Shown: one piece after another, positions 8,950 through 32,347 of the stretch
Layout: every line of letters begins with the position of its first letter
How positions within the stretch are numbered: position 1 is the stretch's first letter
NCBI GenBank assembly: GCA_017996625.1
Contig: JAGOGO010000017.1
Span: forward strand, 1 to 32,347
Source: Deltaproteobacteria bacterium
GTDB taxonomy: Bacteria; Desulfobacterota; WTBG01; JAGOGO01
Reading direction: 5' to 3'
DNA length: 32,347 nucleotides
Notes under the pieces: model-generated
Databases searched by the model: none
Seen by the model: the letters and a program-made list of their open reading frames with translations, nothing else
Told to the model about the DNA's origin: nothing
Position numbers and translations under genes: made by a program

Positions 8950-8994
8950 TACCGAAGCACCTCAGAATTCAACATCGAAGCCAAGGGATTCTTC

Positions 8995-10848
8995 TCATAC
9001 ATTATCGTCTTCTTCGCTCTGGATAAGTACGCAGAAAGACCAGGGCGAAAGGGTGAGTTCTGTATCCTCACCCCCTTGAATCACCTCTGGTATCAAGCTG
9101 CCGGGGCCATGCCACTGCGTCTCGGAGGTGTCGATCAGTTTTTCCCAGTATCCTTCCGGGAATCCGATATTCAGCAGCACCCGATTGTCACCACAGTGAA
9201 AGAGGATCAAAGCTTCGCTAGCCCCTGTCCACCGCCGCACCATAAGCGTCTGGTCAGCAGGGAAGGACAAGACCTCCATCTTCTCCTTATCCAGACTCCG
9301 CAGACACGGAATTGCCGTGCGCATCTGGATCAAGATTCTATAGAGATCGTATATAAGCTGGTGTTCTTCTTTTTCTTTACACGCATGATCGAGCTTGCAG
9401 GCTAAAAAGGTTTCTTTTGCCTGAGGATCAGGTGGCTCGATACCCTTGGCAAACTCAGCGAACTCCTGCTTCCGGCCCTCGGCCACTGCCTTTGCCAGCT
9501 CCGGATCGCCGGCACTGACAAAATATTGAAACGGCGCTCTCTCCCCATATTCTTCTCCCATAAAGAGCAGTGGAAGATACGGAGCCAGGAGCACCAGCCC
9601 GGCGGCCAGCTTCTGCGCTTCCAGCGAAACCAGGCTGCTTAACCGCTCGCCCAGCATCCTGTTGCCGATTTGATCATGGTTCTGACTAAATATAATCAGT
9701 TGATGTCCGGGAATTGCCTCTGATGAGGTGCCGTAGTTGCGCTTCCGATAGGGCGAGTACTGGCCGGAATAAACGAATCCTTCGCGATAGGCTTTGGCCA
9801 GATCCTGTATCTGCCCGTAGCCGCAGTAGTATCCATCCCGCTCGTTGGTCATCAGTGCGTGCAGGGCATGATGAAAATCATCATTCCACTGAGCATCCAT
9901 CCCGAAACCACCCAACTCACGGCATCGGATCAGACGCGTATCATTGAGATCGCTTTCAGGAATAAGATAGATGCGTCGATTAATGCGTTCAGCATAATCG
10001 TGAATTGTTTCTGAGAGTTGCTGGAGAAACGGCTGAGCGGCAAAGTCGAGTATGGCGTGGACCGCATCGAGACGCAGGGCATCAACGTGAAATTCGCTTA
10101 CCCAGTAAAGGGCATTTTCCAGAAAATACCGGCGGACGTGATCGCTAAAAGGACCGTCGAAATTGATCGCTTCTCCCCACGGAGTCGTGTAACGGTCGGT
10201 GAAGTAGTATCCAAACTCAGAGAGATAGTTCCCTTCAGGCCCGAAGTGGTTGTATACAACATCGAGCACGACTGCCAGGCCGTTCTGATGGCAGGCATTG
10301 ACCAGAGTCTTCAATCCCTCCGGACCGCCGTAGGAGTTTTGAACGGCAAACGGATAGACTCCGTCGTATCCCCAATTGCGTGAACCAGGAAACTGTGCCA
10401 CCGGCATCAGTTCGAGTGCAGTGATTCCCATATCCCGCAACTCTCCAAGGTGCGGGATAATGGCTGCAAATGTTCCTTCGCTGGTATATGTTCCCACGTG
10501 CAGCTCATAGAGGATGTAGTCCCGCAAGGGAATCCCATACCAGAATCCGTCAGTCCATTCGAACGTGGGATCGATCACTGCGGATGCTTCGTGAACCCCA
10601 TCGGGCTGGTATCGTGAGGCCGGGTCCGGCCGCTCCCTACTATCGTCAAGGACGAAGACATACCGGCTCCCCGGTGTGATATTTTCGATCACTCCGCTGA
10701 AGTATCCATTATTTTGCTTTATCAAGGGGAAGGTGCGTTGTTCAGGAGCACACACGTGAACCTCAAGCTCCTGCAGCTTGGGGCCCCATACACAAAAAGC
10801 GCATTGGCCTTCGCCCAGCCACGTGGCACCTAACGGATACCGTCTCAT
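8995..10848 (-). CDS. treZ: Malto-oligosyltrehalose trehalohydrolase
   Basis: TreZ is a GH13 hydrolase that releases trehalose from the maltooligosyl trehalose made by TreY. The 617-aa protein has an N-terminal beta domain (1-95, CBM48/E-set type), then the barrel from YELHVGTY. The nucleophile is Asp261 in VDALRLDAVHAI, the acid/base is Glu298 in YLIPESDLND, and the third acid is in FSQNHDQIGNR. DVVYNHFGPEGNYL is a family signature. I chose the ATG at 10848 because GGAGGA sits about 4 nt before it; an in-frame GTG lies 21 bases further upstream. It precedes treY by 45 bp, so the two are almost certainly co-transcribed. The gap to glgB holds an inverted repeat that could partly separate them. 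Confidence 0.96.
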   Translation of the reverse strand: MRRYPLGATWLGEGQCAFCVWGPKLQELEVHVCAPEQRTFPLIKQNNGYFSGVIENITPGSRYVFVLDDSRERPDPASRYQPDGVHEASAVIDPTFEWTDGFWYGIPLRDYILYELHVGTYTSEGTFAAIIPHLGELRDMGITALELMPVAQFPGSRNWGYDGVYPFAVQNSYGGPEGLKTLVNACHQNGLAVVLDVVYNHFGPEGNYLSEFGYYFTDRYTTPWGEAINFDGPFSDHVRRYFLENALYWVSEFHVDALRLDAVHAILDFAAQPFLQQLSETIHDYAERINRRIYLIPESDLNDTRLIRCRELGGFGMDAQWNDDFHHALHALMTNERDGYYCGYGQIQDLAKAYREGFVYSGQYSPYRKRNYGTSSEAIPGHQLIIFSQNHDQIGNRMLGERLSSLVSLEAQKLAAGLVLLAPYLPLLFMGEEYGERAPFQYFVSAGDPELAKAVAEGRKQEFAEFAKGIEPPDPQAKETFLACKLDHACKEKEEHQLIYDLYRILIQMRTAIPCLRSLDKEKMEVLSFPADQTLMVRRWTGASEALILFHCGDNRVLLNIGFPEGYWEKLIDTSETQWHGPGSLIPEVIQGGEDTELTLSPWSFCVLIQSEEDDNV

Positions 10849-10962
10849 GGTTCCTCCGCGGTCTTTCACTGCAGCAAACTAGCCGGATAAGGAAATCACT
10901 CTGTAATGGTTATCGAACAACTGTCGCAGGAATATGGGGGAAAAAGGGTATTTTGTCGGAGA

Positions 10963-11135
10963 AGACTCTTTATTTAGAAGGAACGAAGGAAGGTCCAAAG
11001 TTGCAGGTTCAAGGTTCAAAGTGGAACAGTAAGGAGTAAAAAGTGAGAAATAAGGAGTTGGGAAAAACGGGCATCAATCACCTGTCGTCTTACCACTCCT
11101 TACTTTTCACTTCTCATTCTTCACTGTATTTTGCG
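10963..11135. repeat. Inverted heptamer arrays between glgB and treZ
   Basis: The arms 11028-11062 and 11091-11125 are complementary at 26 of 35 positions without gaps by my count. Seven of the nine mismatches are purine-purine differences, which in RNA means G-U wobbles or A-C mismatches. Both arms read in 7-bp steps (AGTAAGG-AGTAAAA; CTTACTT-TTCACTT). GTTCAAG-GTTCAAA units flank the left arm. The structure lies just past the glgB stop, so it could act as a processing or attenuation hairpin, but no clear U-run follows it. Confidence 0.7.
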
Positions 11136-11143
11136 CCTTACCG

Positions 11144-13051
11144 TCATCGTTTAAAGAATACTGCGGCCAGCGGCGGCAGCGTAATATTGAGTGAGTTAGG
11201 AAGACCGTGAAATGGAATCGGGTGAGCTTCAACACCGCCGAGATTTCCCATTCCACTTCCACCGTACCAAGCGGCATCACTGTTGAGCACCTCTTTCCAA
11301 AACCCAGGGCCTGGTGCGCCGACTCGATAATTTTCTCGGGGAACCGGCGTGAAATTAAAAACCGCCATTATGATATCGTCCGAACCCGGCCTGCGGCGGA
11401 AGAAACTAATAGTATTCTGCAATGCATCGTTGCAGTCGATCCAGCGAAACCCATCCGGATGAAAATCGCCTGCATGCAACGCACCCTCGCTTCGATACAG
11501 GCCATTCAGATCCCGCACCCAGTGAGAAAGACCGGCATGCAAAGGTTCATCGAGCAGGTTCCAGTCGAGACTCACCTCATGGTACCACTCGTTCCACTGG
11601 CCGAACTCTCCGCCCATGAAAAGCAGCTTCTTGCCGGGTTGTCCGTACATGTACGCGAAGAGGAGCCGAAGATTGGCACATTTTTGCCATTTATCTCCCG
11701 GCATTTTCTGCAGCAGCGATCCCTTGCCATGAACTACTTCATCGTGGGACAGAGGCAAAACAAAATTCTCGTGATAGGCATAGAGCATTCTGAAGGTAAG
11801 CTTGTCATGGTGGTAGGTTCGATAGATCGGGTCCCTGGACATATACTCGAGCGTATCATGCATCCAGCCCATATCCCACTTCATACCGAATCCCAGTCCT
11901 CCAACGTACGTGGGGCGCGATACCATTGGCCAGGCAGTCGACTCTTCGGCGATAGTCTGCACCGACGGAAAATCGCTGTACACAACCTCATTGAATCGCT
12001 TGAGGAATGAAATCGCTTCGAGACTCTCGTTGCCGCCATACTGATTGGGGATCCATTCTCCCTCATGTCGGCCGTAATCCAGGTAGAGCATGGATGCGAC
12101 TGCGTCCACCCGAAGACCATCGGCATGGTAGCAGTCCAGCCAGAACCGAGCACTGCTGATGAGGAAGCTTCGAACTTCGCTTCTTCCATAATTGAAAATA
12201 AAGCTATCCCAGTCCGGATGAATTCCCTGCCGGGGATCAGAATGCTCGTAGAGATGCGTTCCATCAAAATATCCCAGGCTGTGTCCGTCCCGCGGAAAGT
12301 GAGATGGTACCCAGTCCAGAATGACTCCTATACCCTGCTGATGCAGAAAATCAATCAAGTACATGAAATCCTGCGGAGTCCCATAGCGACTGGTCGGCGC
12401 AAAGTAACCGGTAACCTGGTATCCCCATGATCCGTAAAAAGGATGTTCCATGACCGGCATGAACTCGACGTGGGTGAATCCCATCCGATTCACGTATTCA
12501 GCCAGACGCGGAGCGATTTCCCGGTAGGTAAGCGACCGGTAGTTCTCTTCGGGAACCCGCATCCACGATCCCAGATGTACTTCATAAATCGAAATCGGGT
12601 CATCGCCCCGGTTACTTCGGGAGCGCCGGGTCACCCACTCGACATCGTTCCAGTCATAACTAAGATTCCAGACTATTGAACCGGTCAGTGGCGGCACTTC
12701 ATTGTAGGTCGCAAACGGATCCGTTTTGTCTATGTGATAACCGAGGTAGCGGGAGGCAATGTAATATTTGTAGAGCGTTCCCTGCCCTACGCCAGGAATG
12801 AAGCCTTCCCATATGCCCGAGGCCTCGGCAGGCCGGAGCACATGGCAGTCGGGGTCCCAACTGTTGAAGTCGCCGATAACAGATACTTGTTCGGCATCGG
12901 GCGCCCAGACCGCAAAGTACGTGCCTGCTCCTCCGTCAGTATCGATACTGTGAGCCCCCAGCTTCCGGTACAGCTGAAAATGGCTGCCCTCATTAAACAG
13001 AAAGAGATCATCAGTCGTGAGCAGGCTTACGTCGTAGTTGACTGTATTCAT
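11144..13051 (-). CDS. glgB: 1,4-alpha-glucan branching enzyme (GH13)
   Basis: GlgB cuts alpha-1,4-glucan and rejoins the fragment as an alpha-1,6 branch. The protein is 635 aa with a CBM48 module (roughly 25-125; [20 protein letters not shown]), the catalytic barrel from YEVHLGSW, and a C-terminal beta domain. The nucleophile is Asp316 in [15 protein letters not shown], the acid/base is Glu369 in IAEEST, and the third acid is in [13 protein letters not shown]. The D-to-E spacing of 53 equals that in the E. coli enzyme. It lacks the extra N-terminal module of long GlgB forms. I prefer the ATG at 13051, with GGAGA about 6 nt upstream, over the in-frame ATG at 13066, which has a poor ribosome site. 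It lies between treS and treZ with repeat-filled gaps on both sides. Confidence 0.97.
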
Positions 13052-13109
13052 CTTGTCTCCATTCATGGTTACTCATAAAAGGAACGAAACCGGGAATGAT
13101 AAGAAAGTT

Positions 13110-13258
13110 GGGGTACCAGAACAGTGGAGTGCTGGAATGCTGGGTGTTGGTATAAAGATCAGGACACCATGAGAGACAACCATTGCTCGATTATTCCCTT
13201 ATTCCAACACCATAAATTTCGCTATTCCAGTATCTTCGCTCAACGGATAACGGTGAAC
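13110..13258. repeat. Inverted heptamer arrays between treS and glgB
   Basis: The left arm has CTGGAATG and GGTGTTGG (13132-13150) and the right arm has the complements CCAACACC and ATTCCAG (13204-13230). Both are in degenerate 7-bp steps such as CGATTAT-TCCCTTA. Next to the right arm, 13244-13258 reads CGGATAACGGTGAAC, an exact 15-mer shared with 23050-23064 in front of the second prkA-like gene. Confidence 0.65.
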
Positions 13259-13266
13259 GTCCACCA

Positions 13267-16200
13267 TCATTCCATCCGCAGCTCCAGCAGACGCTGGACC
13301 CCGTCCAAGGGGATGCGGACCCAGTCCGGCCGGTTATTGAGCTCATAGCCCAGCTCATAGACCGCCTTTTCCAGCAACAGCAGGCTGAGCAGGAGCGATC
13401 GTTCTTCCTTGGTTGGAGGAAGAAACGTACCAGAGCCAGCAACACTAAAATACTCTTTTAAAAAAGCAGCGCTTACGCTGTGCCCCCATACCCGGGAAAC
13501 AGTGCCGAGGTACTGCAAATCATCCGCCGTATGCACTCCCGACCTCCGCTGCTCGAGAAGCGCCGCAAGAGCTGCATAATGAAAGGACCGGAGCATGCCG
13601 GCAACATCACGCAAGGGTGAGCGCTTCAGCCGCCGCTGCGTAAGCGGCCGGGCCGGTTCACCTTCAAAGTCGATAATGACTACATCTTTGCCCGTATAGA
13701 GCACCTGTCCGAGATGATAGTCACCGTGGATGCGGATACGTGCCCCAGAAATCCTGGTTTTCAGGAGCAATGCGAAACGGCCGATGATGTCAGCCCGGAT
13801 ATCCAGCAGCGCTTTTCCCAGCACTTGTATTTCCGGCGGGAGACTTGAAAGCTGCTGCCGCAGCGTCATCATGACCTCGTTGGTGAGGGTGCGCATGGAC
13901 TGGTACAGAGATCGTTGAAAAAGCCTGGTAAACGGTTCGGGCGCAAAATTACTATCCTCTGACTCTGACGCAAGCACCAGGTGACATTCCGCCGTTCGCC
14001 TTCCCAAAAGCCGAATCATTTCTACATACGGCCCGATCATATTCATAATCGCCGGATTGGGCTCTTCCTCAAAGAGCTGGTCGAGGCTGACGACTGGCCT
14101 CACTTCCGATAGTATACCATCTCTTCGGGCTAATGCAGTCTCAAAAAAGTGCTTAAACATGTCCAGCGTGTAATCCCAGGTGTCTCCCTCGTTCTCAACA
14201 AAGGAATGCAGAATCGCCACAGTACGGTTTTCCTCGCCTCCACGATGATACTCGATAGCCCCGGCTACCTGAGGAATGTGGACAAACCCTGCCCGGGTAA
14301 GAAATCCGCCGACCTCCAGATCCGGGTTGATGCCTGCCTCAAGCCGGCGGAATAGTTTCAGGACGAAACGTTTTCCATAGATGACCGAGGTATTGTTCTG
14401 CTCTCCACCTATTACTGTCGGTGCCATTGCTTCGCCGTCCGGACTTCGAAGCGTTCGAAATGCTCGGGTGACACTGCCGGCGAGCTCGCCTTCCATTCCT
14501 CTGGACTGACGACGATAAGCTGTTACCTCGAACAGATACTGACAGAAATTGACATCAATCACTGCATCCACAATCGCCGCCGTTTCTTCACCCTTGCCGG
14601 AATGGAGCCGACAGATCACGGCAGCAGGGAATCGCCTGGCGTCTTCGCTGTCCGTACTTAGTGCAGTCAACGGAACCAAATACACCTCCGGATCTTCTAC
14701 CGTATATTCCACGTGCAGCAGGGTTATGGCGAAATCCTGTCCCCGCCGCGAAGCCCGGATCACCTCGCGCAGAAAAACTGACTTGATCGTGCGTGTCTTT
14801 CCTCGAAACCACCGCTGCATCACCAGCCATCCCGGCAAGGCTCCTTCGAGGTCCCTTCTGCCTCTCCCGTGAAAAAGATCGAACCACGAACCGTCTACCA
14901 TAATCCTTGGAATAGAACACACAGGTGCCGGAGAAACCATAAACTGTTTAATCTGTTCCGGCCGATGAGACTCCAGGGAAAACCAGTAGAAGGAATGAGC
15001 GCCCAGAGTAAGAAAATAAGGCTCCTCGCCTATAGCAGGAAACTGCGTTCTGCCGAACAGCTCGACCGGTATCATTCCTTGAAAATCGGTCAGGTCCAGA
15101 AAAGCGGACTGCGCGAACCGAGACAGATTGGCTACTACCAGCAGATGTTCCTGCTCATAGCTGCGCAGGAACGCCAGAACTTTGCGGTTCTCTGGTTGAA
15201 GGAACTGGATCGTTCCCCGGCCAAACGCCTTGAACTGTTTTCTCAATCCGATCAAGCGCTTCATCCACCACAGGAAAGAATGCGGATTCTGCTGCTCATT
15301 TTCGGCGTTGATCGCTTCGTAGTGGTACTGAGGGTCGATTATAATCGGGAGGTACAGCTGCTGAGGATTGGCCCGGGAAAAACCGGCATTGCGATCGGAA
15401 TTCCACTGCATGGGTGTTCGAACTCCGTCCCGGTCGCCCAGATAAATATTGTCACCCATGCGCATTTCATCCCCATAGTAAAGCACCGGGGTTCCCGGCA
15501 GAGAAAAGAGAAGTCCCTTCATCAGCTCGATCCGGCGGCGATTATTGCCCAGCAAGGTGGCGAGCCGGCGGCGAATGCCCAGATTAATGCGCATCTTGCT
15601 GTCGCGCGCATACACCCGGTACATATAGTCCCGCTCTTCGTCAGTAACCATCTCCAGCGTAAGCTCATCGTGATTCCGCAGGAACACCGCCCACTGGCAG
15701 TTCTCCGGAATCGCCGGTGTCTGATCCAGGATGTCCAGGATAGGAAACCGGTCTTCCATATAGATTGCCATGAAGAGACGGGGCATAACTGGAAAGTGAA
15801 ATGCCATGTGGCATATATCCCCATCACCGAAATAGGCGGCAGCATCCTCCGGCCACTGGTTTGCTTCCGCCAGCAGCATCCGATTGCGGTACTTCTGGTC
15901 GACATGAGCACGCAGGGTTCTCAAAAATTCGTAGGTCTCCGGCAGGTTCTCGCAGTTCGTGCCTTCCCGTTCATAGAGGTACGGTACGGCATCCAATCTT
16001 AACCCGTCGACCCCCAGATCGAGCCAGAAATCAATGACTCGCAGCATTGCTCGGCGAACCTGAGCGCTCTCATAATTCAGGTCGGGCTGATGCGAGTAGA
16101 AGCGATGCCAGAAATAGGCCTTTGCCACCGGATCCCAGGACCAGTTGGATGTTTCGAAGTCTTTAAAAATGATTCGTGCTTCTTGATATTCTGAGCTCGA

Positions 16201-16629
16201 ATCGCTCCAGACATAAAAGTTGCGCCAGGCACTTCCTGGTTTTGCTCGCCGGGCTCGCTGAAACCAGGGATGCCGGTCTGAGCTATGATTCAATACCACC
16301 TCGCTGATCACTCTGAGTCCACAGCGGTGAGCTTCATACAGAAATTTCTTGAAGTCGGACATGGTTCCATACGAGGGATGAATTCCAGTGTAATCCGAGA
16401 TATCGTAGCCGTCGTCCCGCAAAGGAGACGGGCAGAAAGGAAGCAGCCAGATACCGCTGACGCCCAGATCCCGGAGATACTCAAGCTTCTGGGTAAGTCC
16501 GCGAAAGTCTCCGATGCCATCGGCATTACTGTCGAAATACGATTTGACATGAAGTTCGTAAAGAATCGCATCCTTGTACCAAAGCGGATCATCGTCCAGC
16601 GGAAAATTTTCGTCGACACATATCGTCAT
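13267..16629 (-). CDS. treS: Trehalose synthase fused to maltokinase (TreS-Pep2)
   Basis: This 1120-aa protein joins two enzymes. Residues 1 to about 560 are a GH13 trehalose synthase (maltose to trehalose interconversion): Asp213 in GLRLDAVPYLYEREGTNCEN, Glu255 in LLAEANQWPED, and the third acid in FLRNHDELTLEM. Residues from about 600 to 1120 are a maltokinase: RIHGDYHLGQVL (966-977) is the catalytic loop and IDFEGEP (986-992) the metal-binding motif. Maltose from the first domain can thus be phosphorylated to maltose-1-phosphate by the second. Such fusions are known in several phyla, usually feeding GlgE, which is absent here. AGGGAGA about 8 nt before the ATG fixes the start. It is the first large gene of the minus-strand block. 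Confidence 0.96.
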   Translation of the reverse strand: MTICVDENFPLDDDPLWYKDAILYELHVKSYFDSNADGIGDFRGLTQKLEYLRDLGVSGIWLLPFCPSPLRDDGYDISDYTGIHPSYGTMSDFKKFLYEAHRCGLRVISEVVLNHSSDRHPWFQRARRAKPGSAWRNFYVWSDSSSEYQEARIIFKDFETSNWSWDPVAKAYFWHRFYSHQPDLNYESAQVRRAMLRVIDFWLDLGVDGLRLDAVPYLYEREGTNCENLPETYEFLRTLRAHVDQKYRNRMLLAEANQWPEDAAAYFGDGDICHMAFHFPVMPRLFMAIYMEDRFPILDILDQTPAIPENCQWAVFLRNHDELTLEMVTDEERDYMYRVYARDSKMRINLGIRRRLATLLGNNRRRIELMKGLLFSLPGTPVLYYGDEMRMGDNIYLGDRDGVRTPMQWNSDRNAGFSRANPQQLYLPIIIDPQYHYEAINAENEQQNPHSFLWWMKRLIGLRKQFKAFGRGTIQFLQPENRKVLAFLRSYEQEHLLVVANLSRFAQSAFLDLTDFQGMIPVELFGRTQFPAIGEEPYFLTLGAHSFYWFSLESHRPEQIKQFMVSPAPVCSIPRIMVDGSWFDLFHGRGRRDLEGALPGWLVMQRWFRGKTRTIKSVFLREVIRASRRGQDFAITLLHVEYTVEDPEVYLVPLTALSTDSEDARRFPAAVICRLHSGKGEETAAIVDAVIDVNFCQYLFEVTAYRRQSRGMEGELAGSVTRAFRTLRSPDGEAMAPTVIGGEQNNTSVIYGKRFVLKLFRRLEAGINPDLEVGGFLTRAGFVHIPQVAGAIEYHRGGEENRTVAILHSFVENEGDTWDYTLDMFKHFFETALARRDGILSEVRPVVSLDQLFEEEPNPAIMNMIGPYVEMIRLLGRRTAECHLVLASESEDSNFAPEPFTRLFQRSLYQSMRTLTNEVMMTLRQQLSSLPPEIQVLGKALLDIRADIIGRFALLLKTRISGARIRIHGDYHLGQVLYTGKDVVIIDFEGEPARPLTQRRLKRSPLRDVAGMLRSFHYAALAALLEQRRSGVHTADDLQYLGTVSRVWGHSVSAAFLKEYFSVAGSGTFLPPTKEERSLLLSLLLLEKAVYELGYELNNRPDWVRIPLDGVQRLLELRME

Positions 16630-17763: not shown

Positions 17764-19827
17764 ATGAAGGAAAACGGCATCGGTACTCTGGACTATCATC
17801 TGAAACAGGTTAAAGCGGGTAAGCGACGATTCGAAAACGCGTTTCAATCCGTAGCACGGATGATCCTCGATGATACCAGTCTGATCGATAAAGTCATCGT
17901 ACATGGGAAAAGCACGTACGATTTTGGCTTGTTCCGCACTGGGAAAAAACACGTTATCGGCATGTATGACGAGATCAACAGCTTCGTGTCCTTTGTAAAA
18001 GACGCCGCTGAAGGTGGTTCTTCGAGTGAAATGGCGTTCGTTCTGGTCGGCGAACCCGGTAATGGAAAAACCTTCTTTGTCGAGTACCTCTGCGCGGCCT
18101 ACCGGCAGTTTCTGAGCAAGGAAGCAAACCGGCGGTACACCTTTACCTTCAAGAATCTCGACCGCCTCGGCAGCTACGGAAAAATTACCACCGCTCAGTC
18201 CCAGACCTTCGAAGATCCCATGATTCTCGCGATGAATCTATTTCCCAGCGAGGACAAAAACAAAGAATATCTCAGTCGGCTCGGGTTCACCGATGACGAG
18301 ATTGAGACCTTCTATCGGAGCTTCCGCCCCCTGGGCGCCTGCAGCGACTATGTTCTCAACGATATCCGCAGCAATACCCACGATCACCTCGATAAAATCT
18401 TCGACTATATCGAAATCGTTCCGGTTCCGCTCAGTGAGAGCCTCGGCACGCTTACCGGAAAATATTCGGCCAAAGACAAGATAACTTCTTCCGCGGTCGA
18501 CCTGCTCGGAGAAGAGTCTATTCAGCGCCTGCTCCATATCAGTGATCTCAATAATCCCTACCGCTTCGACCTCCGCCGCGGCGCCCTGGCCCGGGTTGCT
18601 GGCGGCGGCATTCACTTCAGCGATGAAATCTTCAAAAACAAGAAAGACCTCGTCCAGGTCTATCTCGGCGTGATCCAGAATCGAAATATCGAGATCGACG
18701 GATTTCGCTGGCCGATCGATACGCTGATCATCGCTACCAGCAACAACTCGGAGTTCAACCGCTTTGTAGCCGAGCGGGAAGAAGCGCCGATTGTTGACCG
18801 CTGCCGCATCTGCTATGTTGCGCACAATACCGACTACCGTATGCAGAGACAGCTCACTTCCTACGCAATCGGCAGCGAGACCAAAACGACTCTTACTAAG
18901 GCTGAACTCCACCAGGATCCAAACCTCAATTACGCAGCCTCGATTGCCGCAGTGCTTACCCGGCTGCCGCGCTCAGAGAAGCTCACACCCGTGGAGATGA
19001 TGAAGCTCGCCGCAGCAGAAGTTGCTGGTGAAAAGAGCGTCAAGACGCTGGCCGAAGTGATCGACACACTCAATCACGAACCCGATATTACCAAGCGGTT
19101 TGGTCAGAAGGGACTTGGCCAGCGCGACCTCGGCCGAGCGATCCAGCTGCTCATGGAAACCTCGGAAACCAATGAAGGGCAGTGCATGTATGGCGAAGAT
19201 ATCTTCCGGGCACTCGAGCGGGTGATCCTCGACTATGTGGTCGACGGCAGCGATCGCTCAAAGTATCTTCAGGACCTGAAGATTTCCCGTGGCCTGTACC
19301 GTGAACGGATCATGACCGAAATGTTCAATGCCTACATGGACGAGCCACACGCCATCCGCAAGGACGTAATGAACTATGTCAACATGGTGATCGGCATCGA
19401 TGCTGAAAACCTAGGCCCCGACCGGATGTGGAAATACAAGGATCCCCAGAATGGGGAACTCAAGGCCCTTAAGATAGACGAGAAGTACATTCAGAGCGTT
19501 GAAGAGCGCCTGGGACTGAAAACCCGGGAGCAGTGTGAAGCTTTCCGCACCTCCATTCGCAAAATCTACGGGCAGAAGATCTCAGTTGATCCTGGCTATG
19601 ACTTTATGGATAACCTTGAACTCGTCAAAGCGGTTACGGATGTCCGGCTCAAAAGCGACATTGCCGGCGCCGGCAGCCTGATTGGGGCGCTGGCCAACCG
19701 AGCCAATGAGGAAAACCAAAAATTGTACGATCGTATGATCACGACAATGCTCAATAAGCTCGGCTACTGTAAAACCTGCGCTCAGAAAACCATCGAGTAC
19801 TTCTGTACTCAGAACGACGAAAACTAA
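17764..19827 (+). CDS. prkA: Serine protein kinase PrkA (AAA-type)
   Basis: PrkA/YeaG proteins have an N-terminal AAA-like module followed by the PrkA C-terminal domain and act in stationary-phase and starvation signalling. The protein is 687 aa. The P-loop is GEPGNGKT (96-103), acidic Walker-B-like SDEIFK follows GGGIHF, and IIATSNNSEFNRF is the sensor-like strand. The C-terminal tail carries C669-K-T-C672 with Cys681, a possible metal site that I do not recall from E. coli YeaG (about 644 aa). The start is the ATG at 17764 with GGGAGG 5 nt upstream; an in-frame extension to 17674 lacks this support. It leads a plus-strand operon with yeaH and spoVR, the conserved partners of PrkA. Confidence 0.95.
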   Translation: MKENGIGTLDYHLKQVKAGKRRFENAFQSVARMILDDTSLIDKVIVHGKSTYDFGLFRTGKKHVIGMYDEINSFVSFVKDAAEGGSSSEMAFVLVGEPGNGKTFFVEYLCAAYRQFLSKEANRRYTFTFKNLDRLGSYGKITTAQSQTFEDPMILAMNLFPSEDKNKEYLSRLGFTDDEIETFYRSFRPLGACSDYVLNDIRSNTHDHLDKIFDYIEIVPVPLSESLGTLTGKYSAKDKITSSAVDLLGEESIQRLLHISDLNNPYRFDLRRGALARVAGGGIHFSDEIFKNKKDLVQVYLGVIQNRNIEIDGFRWPIDTLIIATSNNSEFNRFVAEREEAPIVDRCRICYVAHNTDYRMQRQLTSYAIGSETKTTLTKAELHQDPNLNYAASIAAVLTRLPRSEKLTPVEMMKLAAAEVAGEKSVKTLAEVIDTLNHEPDITKRFGQKGLGQRDLGRAIQLLMETSETNEGQCMYGEDIFRALERVILDYVVDGSDRSKYLQDLKISRGLYRERIMTEMFNAYMDEPHAIRKDVMNYVNMVIGIDAENLGPDRMWKYKDPQNGELKALKIDEKYIQSVEERLGLKTREQCEAFRTSIRKIYGQKISVDPGYDFMDNLELVKAVTDVRLKSDIAGAGSLIGALANRANEENQKLYDRMITTMLNKLGYCKTCAQKTIEYFCTQNDEN

Positions 19828-19957
19828 CAGGGTGCTGCCAGTGCTGGGTTCAAAGTCGAGGGCTGAGTTTTTGTATAGGTCCTGTATGTCTTATCCGACC
19901 TATACTTCCCCCTCACATCAACCTTGAACCTTGAACTTTGAACATGGAACTTTGAAC
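19828..19957. repeat. Heptamer arrays and a 9-bp hairpin between prkA and yeaH
   Basis: GTATAGGTC (19873-19881) and GACCTATAC (19897-19905) form a perfect 9-bp stem with a 15-nt loop. It is flanked by GTTCAAAGT near 19850 and by a 7-bp periodic array, TTGAACC-TTGAACT then GAACTTT-GAACATG, from 19923 to the start codon of yeaH. ACTTTGAAC in the right array is the complement of GTTCAAAGT on the left. The hairpin could attenuate or process the prkA-yeaH transcript. Confidence 0.65.
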
Positions 19958-21271
19958 ATGGACAAAACTGACAAAGTATCGCCTTATCAACTATACCTAA
20001 CCGGTGACCATATTCTTTCCGAAACGGCACGCGTGGATCCTGAAGCCAGCAGCATTAACGAAATCACCACTGCACCCCGGCTTGAGGAACTGAAACCGCA
20101 CGTTCCCTTTATTCATACTATGCATTCATTGGAGGAACTTCTCGATCGCGACAGCCAGCGAGTGAAAGACGGTTTTCCGCGCAAGATCCGCTTGGGCCGG
20201 TTGATCCGGCCTGAAAGCAAACACAAGGGCAAGGTCATCCTGGTTCCTTCTACTATTGAAGAGAAATTTATTCACGATCGGCGATTCTCTCAGCTGGAAC
20301 AGGATTCTCCGACCGGAGGAGTTGGAAACGGCCAGGAAGGCGACGTAATTGCAGAGCAGCCGATTCATGGCGTCCGGGGCTCCGGAAGTGGGGACGGAGG
20401 CACCGGCGAAGGAGCAGATCACGAAATCGAATCCAACGCTTACGATCTTGGTCGAATTCTCTCAGAGCGCCTTGAGCTTCCCAACATCAGAAGCAGAGGC
20501 AAGAAGCGTTTTCTTTCCCGGTACAGCTACGACCTTACCGACAAGCATGCCGGCACCGGCCAGGTGCTCGATAAAAAGGCAACGCTGCGCAAAATCGTTC
20601 AGACCAATATCGGCCTTGGTACCATTACCAGCGAACAGATGATCGACCCGAACCGCCTGATGGTATCTCCCGACGATAAAGTCTACCGCATTCTCTCAAA
20701 AGAGAAGGACTACGAATCCCAAGCGCTGGTCTTTTTTATGCGCGATTATTCCGGATCGATGACGGGCAAGCCTACGGAAATCATCGCAACCCAGCATGTT
20801 CTCATCTACAGCTGGCTTCTCTACCAGTACGAAAAGCAGGTCGAAACCCGCTTTGTTCTTCATGATACCGAAGCAAAAGAAGTTGACGATTTTTATCAGT
20901 ACTACAGTTTGTCCGTCGCCGGCGGAACCCACGTTTCCGCAGCCTATCGCCTGGTCAACAAGATCGTTGAGGACGAGGGCCTCGCACGTGACTACAACAT
21001 CTACGTCTTTCACGGTACTGACGGCGACGACTGGGATAAAGACGGCCGCAAGACACTGCCGGAGATCAGAAAGATGCTCAGGTATGTAAACCGCATTGGA
21101 ATAACCATTGCCAGCGGTTTCGGGGGTCAGGCTGGCATCACTCCTCTGGAGCGATATCTGAAAGACTCCGGCCTCCTGCAGAAGCATTCCGATCTAATCC
21201 GCCTCGATACCATCGCTGGCGATGACAGCGAGGACCGGCTTATCGAAGGCATCAGAAAGATGACGGCATAA
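19958..21271 (+). CDS. yeaH: YeaH/YhbH family protein (DUF444, vWA-like)
   Basis: This 437-aa protein belongs to the DUF444 family that is nearly always found with PrkA and SpoVR. A charged N-terminal region leads to a glycine-rich linker (about 120-153, with GSGSGDGGTGEGA), then a von Willebrand A-like domain with the MIDAS-type motif D263-Y-S-G-S-M. GGTHVSAAY and FHGTDGDDWDKDG follow, as in the family. The molecular role is not settled; it is thought to act with PrkA in stress responses. The ATG at 19958 is the last unit of a heptamer array and has no clear Shine-Dalgarno, so translation may be weak or coupled. An in-frame TTG lies 27 bases upstream inside the array. Confidence 0.93.
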   Translation: MDKTDKVSPYQLYLTGDHILSETARVDPEASSINEITTAPRLEELKPHVPFIHTMHSLEELLDRDSQRVKDGFPRKIRLGRLIRPESKHKGKVILVPSTIEEKFIHDRRFSQLEQDSPTGGVGNGQEGDVIAEQPIHGVRGSGSGDGGTGEGADHEIESNAYDLGRILSERLELPNIRSRGKKRFLSRYSYDLTDKHAGTGQVLDKKATLRKIVQTNIGLGTITSEQMIDPNRLMVSPDDKVYRILSKEKDYESQALVFFMRDYSGSMTGKPTEIIATQHVLIYSWLLYQYEKQVETRFVLHDTEAKEVDDFYQYYSLSVAGGTHVSAAYRLVNKIVEDEGLARDYNIYVFHGTDGDDWDKDGRKTLPEIRKMLRYVNRIGITIASGFGGQAGITPLERYLKDSGLLQKHSDLIRLDTIAGDDSEDRLIEGIRKMTA

Positions 21272-21317
21272 GAAGTCGACGGTCGAATTTCCAAAGTCTA
21301 AGGTCGAAAGTGGGTCT
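21272..21317. repeat. Short heptamer array between yeaH and spoVR
   Basis: The 46-bp gap is almost wholly a degenerate 7-bp array: GAAGTCG-ACGGTCG, then AAAGTCT-AAGGTCG and AAAGTGG. Unlike the other gaps it has no inverted partner. It also holds the only possible ribosome site for spoVR. Confidence 0.55.
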
Positions 21318-22973
21318 ATGCAACTGATCGATCAACACACCAAGAAAATTATGGAGGGGTGCAAGGAGCGCGCCCGCGATGCTGGCTTGCGTTTTCAGGA
21401 CGAGACGCTTGAGTACATTGTTACCAACAAGGATCTCCTCGAACTCACTCCAAAATACATGATTCCTACGCTATACGATTACTGGGTGCATGACGTCGAT
21501 GTGCTTCGGGAACGTGGGCGCTATGAGCTCTATCCGGTCAATCCCTACGAGACCGTTATCAATACCCGGCCGCCAATTTCGTTTTATAACGATAACAACC
21601 CGGACTGGCTCAACGTCATGATCTTTTATCATGTGCTCGCGCACATTGACTTTTTCCAGAACAACATGCTCTTTAAACATACGTGGCATGAGGATTTCAC
21701 CGGCATCGCCCTCGCCGACAAGCGCCTTATTGCCAGATTGCGTTCCGAAAAGGGCCGCTGGGTCGATTACGTCATCGAGTTCACCCGGGGGATCGACAAT
21801 ATCATCGGATACTACGAACAGCTTTCGGACCTCAATCACCCAAAGGCGATCGCGACCTCGCGAAAGGTCAACTACTATTTCGATCATTTCCTCCAAACTG
21901 TCCACCACGCCAAAACACATGAGTACTTCAAAGAAATCGATCGTTACAACGAAGCGCAGCGCCGCTACGGTGCTGCCGCCGAATCCATCTTCTTCTCCGA
22001 AGTCTCACAAAAATATCCTGAGTTCGACACGCTCTTTCTGCGTTCCCGCAGCCAGCGGAGGCAGGAAACGAGAGACGTCATCCAGTACCTTATCGAGCAT
22101 TCCCCTTTCCTTCAGCGCGAAGAAAACAAGTGGATGAGATCACTGATGCAGGTCGTGCGCAACACATCCCTCTTCTTTCAACCGCAGATTCGCACCAAGA
22201 TCCTGAACGAAGGGTGGGCCAGCTATTGGCATGAGAAACTGTTTCTCGGCGACGACCGCATCAGAGGAAACGAGGTCGCTTTCGCGCTGGTCAATGCTAA
22301 CGTCATCGCCATCCCCCGCATCGGTCTCAATCCCTACGGGCTCGGTGTCCGGCTCTTATCCTATCTCGAAGAGCTGGCAGAAACGGGAAAAACATCTTTC
22401 GAGTTTCAAAAGCTTACTAGGAATGAGGATCGTGCTTCTTTCAACCGCAAGACTGGCAAAGGAAAAGACTTTCTTTTTTCAGTGCGCGAGAACTACAGCG
22501 ATTTTCTCTTCATCAATTCATTTGTTGACCAGGATTTTGTCGATCGCCACAACCTTTTCGTGGCCGGCAAGCGGCTCAATGCCGCCAAAGGCGTGTGGGA
22601 GATTTACGTCAAGAGCCGCGATTCCCACCAATACAAGGAGATGCTGATCGACTCGCTCTATCACCCGCCATACATTTACATTGATCCGGCAAAGGCTCGG
22701 GGCTATTGCCTCTACCTTAATCATCGGTTCGAAGGCAAGCCGCTCGTTCAGGATTATATCGCCAATACCATGTTGGGAATCGAATACCTCTGGGGAGGTC
22801 CGGTGAAGCTCGAAACCACCGAACTCCACTCAGACTGGCAGGCGCATAAGCTTCCCCGGGGACCTGCCCAGCCGTATACACCATCAGCAGGTCGCAGCAC
22901 GACAGCGCCGCCCCGCCTTCAGCGCGTCGTCTATACCATGGAAAACCGCCGGCTGCGACGGGCACTGATATGA
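21318..22973 (+). CDS. spoVR: SpoVR/YcgB family protein
   Basis: SpoVR was named for a spore-cortex role in Bacillus, but family members are widespread in non-sporulating bacteria next to prkA and yeaH. Their biochemical activity is unknown. The 551-aa protein has the long SpoVR body with family-like segments such as TPKYMIPTLYDYWVHD, FYHVLAHIDFFQNN and ILNEGWASYWHEKLF. The last 45 or so residues are basic and proline/serine-rich and may be an extension beyond the family (E. coli YcgB is about 510 aa). The ATG at 21318 directly follows a heptamer array, with only a weak AAGG upstream. The gene is third in the prkA-yeaH-spoVR set and most likely co-transcribed. Confidence 0.94.
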   Translation: MQLIDQHTKKIMEGCKERARDAGLRFQDETLEYIVTNKDLLELTPKYMIPTLYDYWVHDVDVLRERGRYELYPVNPYETVINTRPPISFYNDNNPDWLNVMIFYHVLAHIDFFQNNMLFKHTWHEDFTGIALADKRLIARLRSEKGRWVDYVIEFTRGIDNIIGYYEQLSDLNHPKAIATSRKVNYYFDHFLQTVHHAKTHEYFKEIDRYNEAQRRYGAAAESIFFSEVSQKYPEFDTLFLRSRSQRRQETRDVIQYLIEHSPFLQREENKWMRSLMQVVRNTSLFFQPQIRTKILNEGWASYWHEKLFLGDDRIRGNEVAFALVNANVIAIPRIGLNPYGLGVRLLSYLEELAETGKTSFEFQKLTRNEDRASFNRKTGKGKDFLFSVRENYSDFLFINSFVDQDFVDRHNLFVAGKRLNAAKGVWEIYVKSRDSHQYKEMLIDSLYHPPYIYIDPAKARGYCLYLNHRFEGKPLVQDYIANTMLGIEYLWGGPVKLETTELHSDWQAHKLPRGPAQPYTPSAGRSTTAPPRLQRVVYTMENRRLRRALI

Positions 22974-23147
22974 AGCGTTCACCGTTGACCGCAAGAGACA
23001 GAAAAAAGGGTCTCTATTAGTGAACAAAAGACCTAATCCAGCCGGTGAACGGATAACGGTGAACACCAAGACGCTCAACAACGGCACCTGCTTCATGAGG
23101 AATAACGAGCACGAGCTACAATACAACCAACATGAGGACCTCAAGAC
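22974..23147. repeat. Inverted GTTCACCG-type arrays between spoVR and the second prkA-like gene
   Basis: The left arm GCGTTCACCGTTGACCGC (22975-22992) is largely the complement of 23042-23067, which contains CGGTGAACGG and CGGATAACGGTGAAC. The 15-mer at 23050-23064 is identical to 13244-13258 near the treS 3' end, and 13 of 15 positions match 30564-30578 in front of rmlA. The rest of the gap to 23147 shows nothing I recognise. Confidence 0.65.
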
Positions 23148-25451
23148 ATGCACCACGCTGTCGATACCATCATCACCAATCTCTGCAGCACGATCAAGGC
23201 CGAAAGTGAACGGACCCCGATACCCTTCCGTACCTATCTCGGGTACGTAGCGGAAACACCTGCCCGGCAGCTCCGCACTATTTTTCAGCTCTTCTATGAC
23301 ATGATCCATACCCTCGTTGGCGAAGGCTATGATGAGTGTCCGGGCGACCCGGAATCAGTCAATTTCGTTCTTTTTAATTGCAGCCGACTGTTTGTTAACG
23401 GCTCTGACCATCCTTTTTTTGCCGATCGCATCTTTGCGAATCGCTTCATCAACACGATAAGATCGCTCATCCACTGCGTCCCTCAGAATCGTATGTTCAT
23501 TTTTCGCGGACCGCACGGTTCCGGGAAAAGCACCTTCCTCAACAATCTGCTTCTGAAGTTCGAGCAGTTCACTCGTAGCGAAGAGGGAGCCATCCATGAA
23601 ACGATCTGGCGCCTCGATCGCAAGCGTCTCGGAGATTTTTCCGAGCACGATGCCCAGCTTATTTTGACGCGGCTCATCCGGTTTTCTGATAATGGTACCA
23701 GTCATCATCCGGGTCGGGCTCTTGCCCCTCACCACAGCCCGAGCACGCAGCTTTCCTGCAATGAGTATCTCGAGATTCCCTGTCCCAGCCATGACAACCC
23801 GATCCTGCTTATACCGAAAGCTCACCGCCGGCAGTTCCTCAGCGAGCTCATCAGCGACGAGCCATTCAAACAAAGGCTTTTTTCCGAAAAATCCTACGAG
23901 TGGCTTTTTCGCGCCAACGCCTGTACCATCTGCACCTCACTTTACCAGGCGCTGGTCGACATCCTCGGCTCACCGGCCGCTGCTTTCGACATGCTGTACA
24001 GTCGGCGCTACCAGTTTAGCCGCGGCCTTGGTGAAGGAATCAGTGTATACAACCCGGCTGATCGCGAACCACGGACAAAAGTACTCTCCAATCAGCTTCT
24101 TCAAAATCAGCTAAACAGCCTGCTGCGGGATAGCAATCGGGTAAAGTACGTGTTTTCCCGCTATGCAAAAACGAATAACGGCGTCTATGCACTCATGGAT
24201 ATCAAAGGCCACAACAAGGAGCGGTTTGCCAATCTCCACGGTATTATCAGCGAAGGCATCCACAAGGTGGATGATATTGAGGAAAACGTGAGCTCACTGT
24301 TCCTCGCGCTGCTCAATCCTGAAGATGGCGAAGAACTCGAAACCGAGTCCTTCTCCGATCGCATCACGCCAATTAAAATCGGCTATATTCTCGATCACAA
24401 TACTGAGATAAAGATCTACCGCACTGTGTTTGGCGATCACATCGAAGCAGACTTTCTCCCTCGAGTGCTTCAGAACTTTTCCCGGATCATTATCTCTTCG
24501 CGCCTGCGCCCGTCCTCTGAAGGCCTGCGGGAGTGGATCGATAATCCCGAAAAGTACCGGCCCTATTGCGACCGCAACCTTCACCTGCTCAAGATGGACA
24601 TTTACGCTGGAGCGCTGCCGCTATGGCTTAAAGAAGAGGATCGCAAGACGTTCACCTCCCGGCGACGCCGGCACATCATTGCCGAATCGGAGTTTGAAGG
24701 TGAATGGGGTTTTTCGGGGAGAGATTCCATCGCCATCTTCAATGAATTCTATTCCACCTATGCCGCATCCGGGAAACTGATCAGCATGGATATGGTCTAT
24801 AACTTTTTCACCAAGCAGCGACACGATCTCTGCGACCTCCTGCCGGAAGGATTTCTGAGCGCCATTGTTCGCTTCTATAATTATTCCGTGCTTCAGGAAG
24901 TCAAAGAAGCGCTCTACTACTATAACGAAGGACATATTGCCCGGGACATCAAGAACTATCTGTTTGCCATCAATTTCGATCCCGGTCAGATCCAGCGCTG
25001 CGTGTATACCGGCGATCAGATTGACATCTGCGAAGACTTCCTCGAAGCCATTGAGTCACGTTTCTTCTCTTCACCTGTGCCTCCGGCCCAGCGACTCATC
25101 TTTCGTACGGAAATCCAGCACCAGTACGCTTCCCGCACCCTGACGCAGGAAATGCTCCTCCACGGAAAACCCTTGGAGGATACCGAGGTATACCAATTTC
25201 TCTACGAGCGCTACGTTCATAACCTGAAGGAAAAAGTCATGGAACCGTTTCTTCGGAACGACAATTTCCGCCGCGCCATCAAGGAGTATGAAACACCGGC
25301 TTTCAAGACCTTCGATCAACGTATTCGTGAGGAAGTGACTTTTCTGATGCGGAATCTCACCACTAAGTACAAATATACCCCCCAGGGGGCAAAGGAAGTA
25401 TGCATGTATGTAGTAGATAATAACCTGGCCCGAACGTTTGCAGAACGATGA
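23148..25451 (+). CDS. Divergent PrkA-type AAA protein (second PrkA paralogue)
   Basis: This 767-aa cytoplasmic protein has a clear P-loop, GPHGSGKS (121-128), after FIFR, and an overall layout like PrkA: a 110-residue lead-in, the nucleotide-binding module, then a long alpha-helical C-terminal part. SSRLRPSSEGLREWI and VMEPFLRNDNFRRAIKEY resemble PrkA-family segments. It differs strongly from the PrkA at 17764. The segment matching SDEIFK reads ALMDIKG, so the Walker-B glutamate seems lost. There is a CTIC pair in the middle (NACTICTSLYQAL), and there is no TSNN-like strand at the expected place. It is fourth in the operon, 174 bp after spoVR behind inverted arrays. The ATG at 23148 has GAGG about 11 nt upstream. 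Kinase activity is not shown by the sequence; it could be a regulatory partner of PrkA. Confidence 0.8.
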   Translation: MHHAVDTIITNLCSTIKAESERTPIPFRTYLGYVAETPARQLRTIFQLFYDMIHTLVGEGYDECPGDPESVNFVLFNCSRLFVNGSDHPFFADRIFANRFINTIRSLIHCVPQNRMFIFRGPHGSGKSTFLNNLLLKFEQFTRSEEGAIHETIWRLDRKRLGDFSEHDAQLILTRLIRFSDNGTSHHPGRALAPHHSPSTQLSCNEYLEIPCPSHDNPILLIPKAHRRQFLSELISDEPFKQRLFSEKSYEWLFRANACTICTSLYQALVDILGSPAAAFDMLYSRRYQFSRGLGEGISVYNPADREPRTKVLSNQLLQNQLNSLLRDSNRVKYVFSRYAKTNNGVYALMDIKGHNKERFANLHGIISEGIHKVDDIEENVSSLFLALLNPEDGEELETESFSDRITPIKIGYILDHNTEIKIYRTVFGDHIEADFLPRVLQNFSRIIISSRLRPSSEGLREWIDNPEKYRPYCDRNLHLLKMDIYAGALPLWLKEEDRKTFTSRRRRHIIAESEFEGEWGFSGRDSIAIFNEFYSTYAASGKLISMDMVYNFFTKQRHDLCDLLPEGFLSAIVRFYNYSVLQEVKEALYYYNEGHIARDIKNYLFAINFDPGQIQRCVYTGDQIDICEDFLEAIESRFFSSPVPPAQRLIFRTEIQHQYASRTLTQEMLLHGKPLEDTEVYQFLYERYVHNLKEKVMEPFLRNDNFRRAIKEYETPAFKTFDQRIREEVTFLMRNLTTKYKYTPQGAKEVCMYVVDNNLARTFAER

Positions 25452-29366: not shown

Positions 29367-30418
29367 AGACTCTCCTTGTTACCGGCGGCTGCGGTTTTAT
29401 TGGCAGCAACTTCATTCGCTATCTTATCGAAGAATCTGATTTCGACGGCTGCATCATCAATGTCGATAGTCTCACCTATGCTGCCAATCTGGAAAACCTC
29501 GCCGACATTGCCGAGCGCTTTCCCGAGCGCTATGTATTCGTCAAAGCCGACATTACTGACCGCACGGCGATGACGGCAGTCTTCGATCGTTACGCCGTCG
29601 ATTCGGTCTGCCACTTCGCTGCAGAATCGCACGTTGATCGTTCTATCGTTCGACCGGATGCGTTCATTCAGACCAATATCATGGGCACCTTCACGCTTCT
29701 CGAATTGGTTAGGGAGCGCCAGGAGCGAATCAGCATTTTTCACCACATTAGCACTGATGAGGTGTTCGGCAGCCTCGGTCCAACGGGGTCTTTCAACGAG
29801 GAAACCTCCTACAAGCCGAACAGTCCCTATTCAGCCTCCAAAGCATCCTCCGATCACCTGGTCAGAGCCTATCACACGACCTATGGGGTTCCGGTTACCG
29901 TTTCCAATTGTTCCAACAATTACGGTCCCTATCAATTTCCGGAAAAACTCATTCCCCTCATGATTTCCAATTGCCTCGAAAACAAGCCGTTGCCGGTCTA
30001 TGGTGACGGCCGCAATGTTCGCGACTGGCTGTATGTACGTGATCACTGCACTGCTATCTGGAAGATTATGCAACATGGGCGCATCGGCGAAACGTATACC
30101 ATAGGCGGCAACAATGAGATGCAAAACCTCGTGCTCGTCGAGATGATCTGTGATATGGTCGATGCATACTGCTCGCACCCTGGCTCATCGCAGCGGCGCA
30201 GCCTGATTACCTTCGTAAAGGATCGGCCTGGCCATGACCGCCGCTATGCCATCGACGCCAGCAAGATCCAGCGGGAACTTAACTGGACACCGGCGGAATC
30301 ATTTGAATCCGGCATCCATAAAACAGTCACCTGGTATCTCAACAACCAGGCGTGGGTCAGCCGGGTCAGAACCGGGGAGTATCAGCGGTGGATCACCGAG
30401 CAATATGAAAAACGTTAA
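29363..30418 (+). CDS. rmlB: dTDP-glucose 4,6-dehydratase
   Basis: RmlB converts dTDP-D-glucose to dTDP-4-keto-6-deoxy-D-glucose with bound NAD+. The 351-aa protein has the Rossmann motif GGCGFIG (8-14), the T131-D132-E133 triad in HISTDEVFG that sets dehydratases apart from epimerases, and Y156-SAS-K160. NYGPYQFPEKLIPLMI and VYGDGRNVRDWLYV are family signatures. I start it at 29363, where GGAG lies about 8 nt upstream and ATGA overlaps the rmlD stop; a start 15 bases earlier is in frame but poorer. The 180 bp after it hold a strong hairpin before rmlA. Confidence 0.97.
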   Translation: MKTLLVTGGCGFIGSNFIRYLIEESDFDGCIINVDSLTYAANLENLADIAERFPERYVFVKADITDRTAMTAVFDRYAVDSVCHFAAESHVDRSIVRPDAFIQTNIMGTFTLLELVRERQERISIFHHISTDEVFGSLGPTGSFNEETSYKPNSPYSASKASSDHLVRAYHTTYGVPVTVSNCSNNYGPYQFPEKLIPLMISNCLENKPLPVYGDGRNVRDWLYVRDHCTAIWKIMQHGRIGETYTIGGNNEMQNLVLVEMICDMVDAYCSHPGSSQRRSLITFVKDRPGHDRRYAIDASKIQRELNWTPAESFESGIHKTVTWYLNNQAWVSRVRTGEYQRWITEQYEKR

Positions 30419-30598
30419 CCGTTGGCCGTTCACCGTTCACCGAAGAAATAGATGCTGTTTTCTTTCGGTGAACAGAATGCAGATACCAGGTCGCTCGTAA
30501 GCGTAGCGTAACTCCAGTCGGTCAATCCCGCTTCAGCGGCATCAATGTATAACCTGATCTTGTCGGTCAACGGTGAACGTTTATTTCAAGGAGACTCT
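30413..30598. repeat. Hairpin and GTTCACCG/CGGTGAAC arrays between rmlB and rmlA
   Basis: GTTCACCGAAGAAA (30435-30448) pairs with TTTCTTTCGGTGAAC (30459-30473): 14 base pairs with one bulge and a 10-nt loop, the strongest hairpin in the window. It is preceded by CCGTTGG-CCGTTCA units, and the complementary CGGTCAA-CGGTGAA units appear at 30564-30578 just before rmlA. No U-run follows, so processing or attenuation is more likely than simple termination. AAGGAG for rmlA follows at about 30589. Confidence 0.75.
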
Positions 30599-32134: not shown

Positions 32135-32347
32135 CCCGCGAAGCGGGTTACCCGTCAGCTCTTCTGGCCCGCGAAGCGGGTTACCCGTCAGCTCTTCTGG
32201 CCTGCGAAGCGGGTTACCCGTCAGCTCTTCTGGCCCGCGAAGCGGGTTACCCGTCAGCTCTTCTGGCCCGCGAAGCGGGTTACCCGTCAGCTCTTCTGGC
32301 CCGCGAAGCGGGTTACCCGTCAGCTCTTCTGGCCCGCGAAGCGGGTT
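32135..32347. repeat. 33-bp tandem repeat, seven hairpin cores, cut by the window end
   Basis: The core CCCGCGAAGCGGG recurs every 33 bp, at 32135, 32168, 32201, 32234, 32267, 32300 and 32333. The copy at 32201 has CCTGCG instead of CCCGCG. Each core is a CCCGC/GCGGG stem with a GAA loop, followed by TTACCCGTCAGCTCTTCTGG. Because 33 is a multiple of 3, all three plus frames and one minus frame stay open; in rmlC's frame each unit would read LLAREAGYPSA. I see no start signal for such a peptide. There are no variable spacers, so it is not a CRISPR array. Confidence 0.9.

Follow-up and report, generated by a model that had tools for sequence, protein, structure and literature searches.

A Conserved Four-Gene Bacterial Cassette Combines Two Very Different PrkA-Family Proteins with DUF444 and SpoVR

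Introduction

PrkA, DUF444 (YeaH-type) and SpoVR proteins form a widespread trio with effects on sporulation and on the response to starvation and osmotic stress. How the trio works biochemically is a matter of debate, and the designation of PrkA as a kinase is doubtful. In a contig of a Deltaproteobacteria bacterium (JAGOGO010000017.1), all 32,347 nucleotides of which were analyzed and are referred to here as the window, the three genes are followed on the same strand by a fourth, encoding a second PrkA-family protein. This locus raises the question of whether the second PrkA belongs with the trio and, if so, what two unlike PrkA proteins may do together. We found that the cassette containing both proteins, designated PrkA1 and PrkA2, is real and conserved, and the invariable presence of a second, very different PrkA suggests a machine in which two different ATPases serve as subunits.

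Gene Content and Family Membership

The first gene, prkA1 (17764..19827, plus strand), encodes a 687-aa PrkA-family AAA+ protein matching the Pfam models PF06798 (123.5 bits) and PF08298 (47.9 bits). It is followed on the plus strand by a DUF444/YeaH-type gene (19958..21271; PF04285, 121.6 bits) with VWA MIDAS residues, by spoVR (21318..22973), which encodes a 551-aa SpoVR-family protein (PF04293, 193.8 bits; cut-off 27), and by prkA2 (23148..25451), the intergenic gaps being approximately 130, 46 and 174 bp. Elsewhere in the window's genome, no further PrkA-family protein scored above the Pfam cut-off. Although the open reading frame of DUF444 extends back to a TTG (19931) within a tandem repeat, the ATG at 19958, giving 437 aa, is the likelier start. 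TTGAACC-like, heptamer-type intergenic repeats occur at window positions 19920-19962, 11007-11019 and 30413-30442, with one array immediately preceding the DUF444 start; the pattern TTGAACNTTGAAC gave 5 matches as compared to 0.19 expected. Upstream of the module (4652-16629) lies a divergent trehalose/glycogen gene set, comprising a TreS-maltokinase fusion, a branching enzyme, a 4-alpha-glucanotransferase and alpha-amylase family proteins, and a convergent P-type ATPase gene lies downstream. A 33-bp tandem repeat (6.5 copies, 98% identical) at 32135-32347 reaches the contig end. No RNA families were found.

The product of prkA2 had been described in the first-pass annotation, made from the sequence alone, as a 767-aa PrkA-like AAA protein with its own P-loop, and the family models bore this out. 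Both PrkA domain models scored above their cut-offs: PF06798 with 166.4 bits (cut-off 25) at residues 482-754, and PF08298 with 25.2 bits, barely above its cut-off of 25 and matching the C-terminal part of that domain only; the P-loop, GPHGSGKS, lies at residue 121. Together with a full-length profile match to the Thermomicrobium PrkA (probability 99.3%, 576 columns), the Pfam matches rule out an origin in an unrelated AAA family. Against the canonical PrkA model NCBIfam NF011999 (cut-off 576), PrkA1 reached 35.9 bits and PrkA2 15.8 bits, so that both proteins are divergent and PrkA1 is itself no ordinary PrkA. The earlier view of the first three genes as a known set thus agrees with the family models, except that its PrkA is a divergent one. 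PrkA1 also passes Pfam AAA_5 (26.9 bits, cut-off 22), for which PrkA2 gave no match, and the PrkA1 and PrkA2 profiles match one another weakly (38%).

One reading offered from the sequence was a kinase-partner pair or a two-layer switch. On this view, either PrkA would phosphorylate its counterpart or some target, and a two-layer switch would result. The family name and the Pfam name of the C-terminal domain of both proteins, "serine protein kinase", are in line with it, as is in vitro phosphorylation by YeaG, reported in a work cited in PMC4664914. However, neither PrkA1 nor PrkA2 matched a kinase family, the Pfam Hanks-kinase family included, and the column of the YeaG "kinase" lysine K426 contains R in PrkA1, is mixed in PrkA2, and is unconserved in several ordinary PrkA proteins. 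Moreover, the kinase activity of B. anthracis PrkA, a protein needed for sporulation and osmotic stress, is negligible (PMC13001217). These data argue against a kinase and its partner, which we consider quite improbable.

The DUF444 protein passes NCBIfam NF003712 (subfamily PRK05325.2-4) with 649.9 bits, as compared with a cut-off of 421. Its MIDAS motif, DxSxS-T-D, consists of D272, S274, S276, T333 and D364 (residues counted from the TTG at 19931), and all five residues are invariant in 19 sequences, among them E. coli YeaH. Because a plain HMM search of the PDB gave no VWA match for DUF444, a profile comparison with E. coli ViaA was needed; it gave a match over the MIDAS with a probability of 79% (E 1.6e-5), as compared to 0.2% for an unrelated control. 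SpoVR fails the equivalog model NF008737 (80.8 bits, cut-off 679), and its H105xxxH109 and N297-E-G-W300 (NEGW) motifs are invariant in both paired and ordinary forms. Since a sequence search of the PDB with SpoVR returned no match even at E 10, its identification as a known metallopeptidase was rejected, and a putative metal site is proposed from the conserved residues.

Recurrence of the Cassette

With PrkA2 alone as the query against genome contigs, we obtained 31 relatives, and their loci were then probed with the four proteins of the window. The gene spoVR was located directly upstream of prkA2 in 25 of the 31 loci, in support of the earlier suggestion that the four-gene order may recur in other genomes. 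All four genes are on one contig in the order prkA1-DUF444-spoVR-prkA2 in 20/31 loci; inserted sequence or genes are present within the full cassette in L017, L020 (where the spoVR-prkA2 gap is approximately 2 kb), L031 and L036, and L037 is truncated at the contig end. Five loci (L009, L015, L026, L028 and L029) have the spoVR-prkA2 adjacency on a truncated contig, prkA2 precedes prkA1 in L007, and L018 lies at the edge of its contig. The remaining four loci, all of Bacteroidota (L021, L030, L034 and L035), have prkA2 apart from the trio, which is found together at a separate site in L030 and L035. PrkA1 is encoded in each of the nine genomes checked in which prkA1 is unlinked or not intact near prkA2. 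Homologues of the 767-aa protein are thus found mostly beside the trio and, where apart from it, in genomes that still encode PrkA1, the opposite of the outcome that the first-pass annotation had named as refuting its proposal.

The organisms with these PrkA2 relatives represent about ten phyla, namely Thermodesulfobacteriota, Myxococcota, Gemmatimonadota, Krumholzibacteriota, Bacteroidota, Ignavibacteriota and Zixiibacteriota, in addition to three candidate phyla. Since the gene order recurs over this range, chance or artefact is rejected. Beyond the four genes, no flanking gene is conserved in more than 4 of 28 loci. A plasmid or phage origin was dismissed, as PrkA2 had no matches in plasmid and phage collections.

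Several loci show local peculiarities. A response-regulator-like gene follows the module on the opposite strand, downstream of prkA2, in L010, L100 and L103. In one genome (G145; L097 and L098), PrkA2 is split between two places on the same contig, most of it lying at one contig end and the last 82 residues 1.3 Mb away, and a 1693-aa frame comes after DUF444; the split reflects either misassembly or rearrangement. Broken frames were seen for SpoVR, in two parts (L110, in genome G013), for PrkA2, in two parts (L035), and for PrkA1, with a stop (L007); they are due to either sequencing error or decay.

Co-Occurrence and Divergence of PrkA1 and PrkA2

When 148 genomes were sampled from the phylum of the window, seven gave strong matches to PrkA2, all within the eight that have PrkA1; the eighth, 84% complete, contains a PrkA1 fragment only. 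In a second phylum, sampled as 198 genomes around a centre genome picked for having PrkA2, PrkA1 and PrkA2 were present in exactly the same five. The Fisher p values for co-occurrence, which ignore kinship and the choice of the centre genome, are approximately 3e-11 and 4e-10, respectively, and no sampled genome has PrkA2 without PrkA1. A PrkA scoring above 160 bits against PF08298, either ordinary or of the G037 type described below, is present in 11 genomes of the first sample, and none of the 11 has PrkA1/PrkA2; this exclusivity is noted as unproven, because the expected overlap is less than one genome. A PF08298 match in genome G007 was dropped, since no Pfam domain was found in the overlapping open reading frame that was tested.

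A maximum-likelihood tree built from 40 proteins placed PrkA1, PrkA2 and ordinary PrkA in three clades (support 100/100, 100/100 and 100/99, respectively), the order of whose splits is unsure because the stems are long. The two deep 100/100 clades with long stems rule out a recent duplication, as the first-pass annotation had supposed in describing the pair as more than a simple duplication. The evolutionary distances of PrkA1 and PrkA2 are correlated (r = 0.82), with PrkA2 evolving approximately twice as fast, and those of PrkA1 correlate more highly with DUF444 (0.92) and SpoVR (0.95).

The main rival to a single mixed machine is that the operon encodes two separate homomeric PrkA rings, which would share DUF444 or SpoVR but differ in the step or the client that they serve. 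Consistent with this, PrkA1 and PrkA2 are very unlike, prkA2 is unlinked in the four Bacteroidota loci, and the canonical systems function with one PrkA gene, whereas the finding that PrkA2 never occurs without PrkA1 in the sampled genomes argues against two independent rings.

Walker B and Cysteine Motifs

PrkA1 has the Walker A motif GEPGNGKT (residue 96), the Walker B motif IHFSDE (residues 283-288), a sensor Asn (327), Arg 346 and a C-terminal C669xxC672. In PrkA2, the Walker A Lys (127) is invariant across all PrkA2, and a Walker B-like ALMDI (residues 348-352), a sensor Asn (390), Arg 405, C212-P-x-H215 and C259xxC262 are found. The Walker A Lys, the sensor Asn and the Arg are kept in all 31 aligned sequences (14 PrkA1 and 17 PrkA2). 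At Walker B, where the alignment is uncertain by one position, 14/14 PrkA1 carry DE, and in 17/17 PrkA2 the residue after D is I or V. The corresponding pair in ordinary PrkA consists of E and then M, V or I; since ordinary PrkA too has one acid there, the absence of the second acid from PrkA2 need not mean an absence of hydrolysis. Ordinary PrkA has C-P-x-H and CxxC elements that are retained in PrkA2 and lost in PrkA1, whereas the reverse holds for the C-terminal CxxC.

These motifs bear on both remaining alternatives. Each PrkA could be self-sufficient, because PrkA2 keeps the C-P-x-H and CxxC elements that PrkA1 has lost; on the other hand, the second Walker B acid is missing from every PrkA2, which speaks against two separate rings, an explanation that we regard as possible but with chances well short of even. 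Alternatively, PrkA2 may stand outside the ring structure as a regulator or inhibitor of PrkA1, either as a dominant-negative-like subunit or as an adaptor responding to a signal from a metal or nucleotide. Its faster evolution, its degenerate Walker B and its invariant Cys/His elements, which could bind zinc or sense the redox state, would fit such a role. However, the Cys/His elements are already present in ordinary PrkA, and the obligate co-occurrence suggests that PrkA2 is required rather than optional; we consider a purely regulatory PrkA2 unlikely.

The predicted structure of PrkA2 (pLDDT 84) gave top PDB fold matches that are nearly all AAA+ proteins, including BchI and NorQ, none of them significant (none below E 4.8e-3). 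The solved PrkA structure 9xip, detected by sequence, was absent from the output of the fold search. The predicted structure of PrkA1 was poor (pLDDT 49), and no conclusions were drawn from this model.

A Proposed AAA+/VWA Machine

We prefer, with confidence somewhat below even, the hypothesis that the four genes encode one ATP-driven heteromeric AAA+/VWA remodelling machine, with PrkA1 as the active subunit, PrkA2 as a structural or regulatory one, and SpoVR as client or effector. PrkA1 would be the ATP-hydrolysing AAA+ subunit, and PrkA2 an AAA+ subunit with a structural or regulatory part in that ring or in a stacked one, able to bind ATP and to offer an arginine finger while lacking the usual catalytic Walker B glutamate. 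DUF444 may serve, in the manner of NorD with NorQ, as a VWA/MIDAS adaptor linking ring and target, and SpoVR, with its conserved His/His and NEGW site, as the client or effector enzyme. The single machine is favoured because PrkA1 and PrkA2 co-occur, have correlated distances (r = 0.82) and differ at Walker B, because prkA2 directly follows spoVR in 25/31 loci, and because DUF444 has an invariant MIDAS and a profile match to ViaA; it is weakened by the 38% profile match between PrkA1 and PrkA2, the insignificant fold matches, the one-position uncertainty at Walker B, the single acid of ordinary PrkA there, the closer distance correlation of PrkA1 with DUF444 and SpoVR than with PrkA2, and the four unlinked Bacteroidota loci. 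Gene content and order, co-occurrence, motif conservation and the deep split between the two PrkA clades were observed here, whereas the mixed ring, a PrkA2 that does not hydrolyse ATP, DUF444 as adaptor and SpoVR as a metal-site protein are inferred. Judging from the motifs, the two proteins are more probably different AAA+ subunits than a kinase and its partner.

A role in stress or starvation is plausible by analogy with the ordinary systems of E. coli, in which YeaG/YeaH act in nitrogen starvation (PMC4664914), and Bacillus. The first-pass annotation had proposed an extended stress-signalling module should the gene order recur in other genomes; the order does recur, and such a module is plausible, although its stress part leans on knowledge of the ordinary trio. 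In the cassette, the AAA+ part would be naturally divided between two obligate partners that differ at Walker B, and this paired form separates the AAA+ function from the presumed kinase function.

Comparison with Known Systems

The ordinary PrkA-YhbH/YeaH-SpoVR systems (E. coli yeaGH/ycgB, B. subtilis prkA/yhbH/spoVR and the Thermomicrobium trio) comprise the same three families, and the trio gene order in Thermomicrobium and in several sampled genomes is the same as that in the window. The ordinary trio differs in having one PrkA only, which belongs to its own clade, and no sampled genome has both systems. A division of labour between an active and a degenerate AAA+ subunit, together with a VWA domain, is found in the magnesium chelatase BchI/BchD. 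This is an analogy only, since the VWA domain of BchD is fused to the degenerate AAA+ subunit, whereas the VWA protein of the window is separate. MoxR-type pairs such as NorQ/NorD and RavA/ViaA likewise encode an AAA+ protein with a VWA/MIDAS protein; this is an established mechanism, in which the AAA+ ring of NorQ/NorD acts through the VWA adaptor (PMC13036017, PMC9976466). By family models, however, PrkA does not clearly belong to the MoxR proteins, since PrkA1 passes AAA_5 and PrkA2 does not match it; PrkA has its own C-terminal PrkA domain, and the window has two AAA+ genes and SpoVR.

A set with two PrkA proteins is not new in itself, since Anderson et al. (2011, PMC3102087) reported neighbouring PrkA-related genes, two in number and invariably accompanied by DUF444 and SpoVR, in every haloarchaeon that they examined. 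Compared by this published description only, the haloarchaeal cluster resembles that of the window, except that its PrkA genes are adjacent, whereas DUF444 and spoVR lie between those of the window; no haloarchaeal PrkA was found in plasmid records. For the bacterial paired form, no description was found in the open-access literature, to which the search was confined.

A second bacterial cassette, in genome G037 (L095, 7031-14642), has the order prkA-DUF444-spoVR-second PrkA, as in the window. Its fourth protein (863 aa) resembles PrkA2 in having D without E at Walker B and no C-terminal CxxC, and its profile matches PrkA2 better than PrkA1, although the tree groups it apart on a long branch; the first PrkA of the cassette stands closer to the ordinary type than PrkA1 does (PF08298, 170 bits). 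PrkA pairs of the G037 type, approximately 5 kb apart, are present in three other members of that class (G367, G368 and G370). The first approximately 30 codons of the fourth frame in L095, which starts at 12054, reappear at numerous sites in these genomes, so that this opening probably represents an intergenic repeat upstream of the true start. A broader and rather doubtful hypothesis is that the two-PrkA cassettes of the window, the G037 type and the haloarchaea represent one ancient heteromeric AAA+/VWA machine, whose other branch would be the single-PrkA system of E. coli and Bacillus; in this scheme PrkA2 would be the non-hydrolysing subunit, and SpoVR either the client or the effector.
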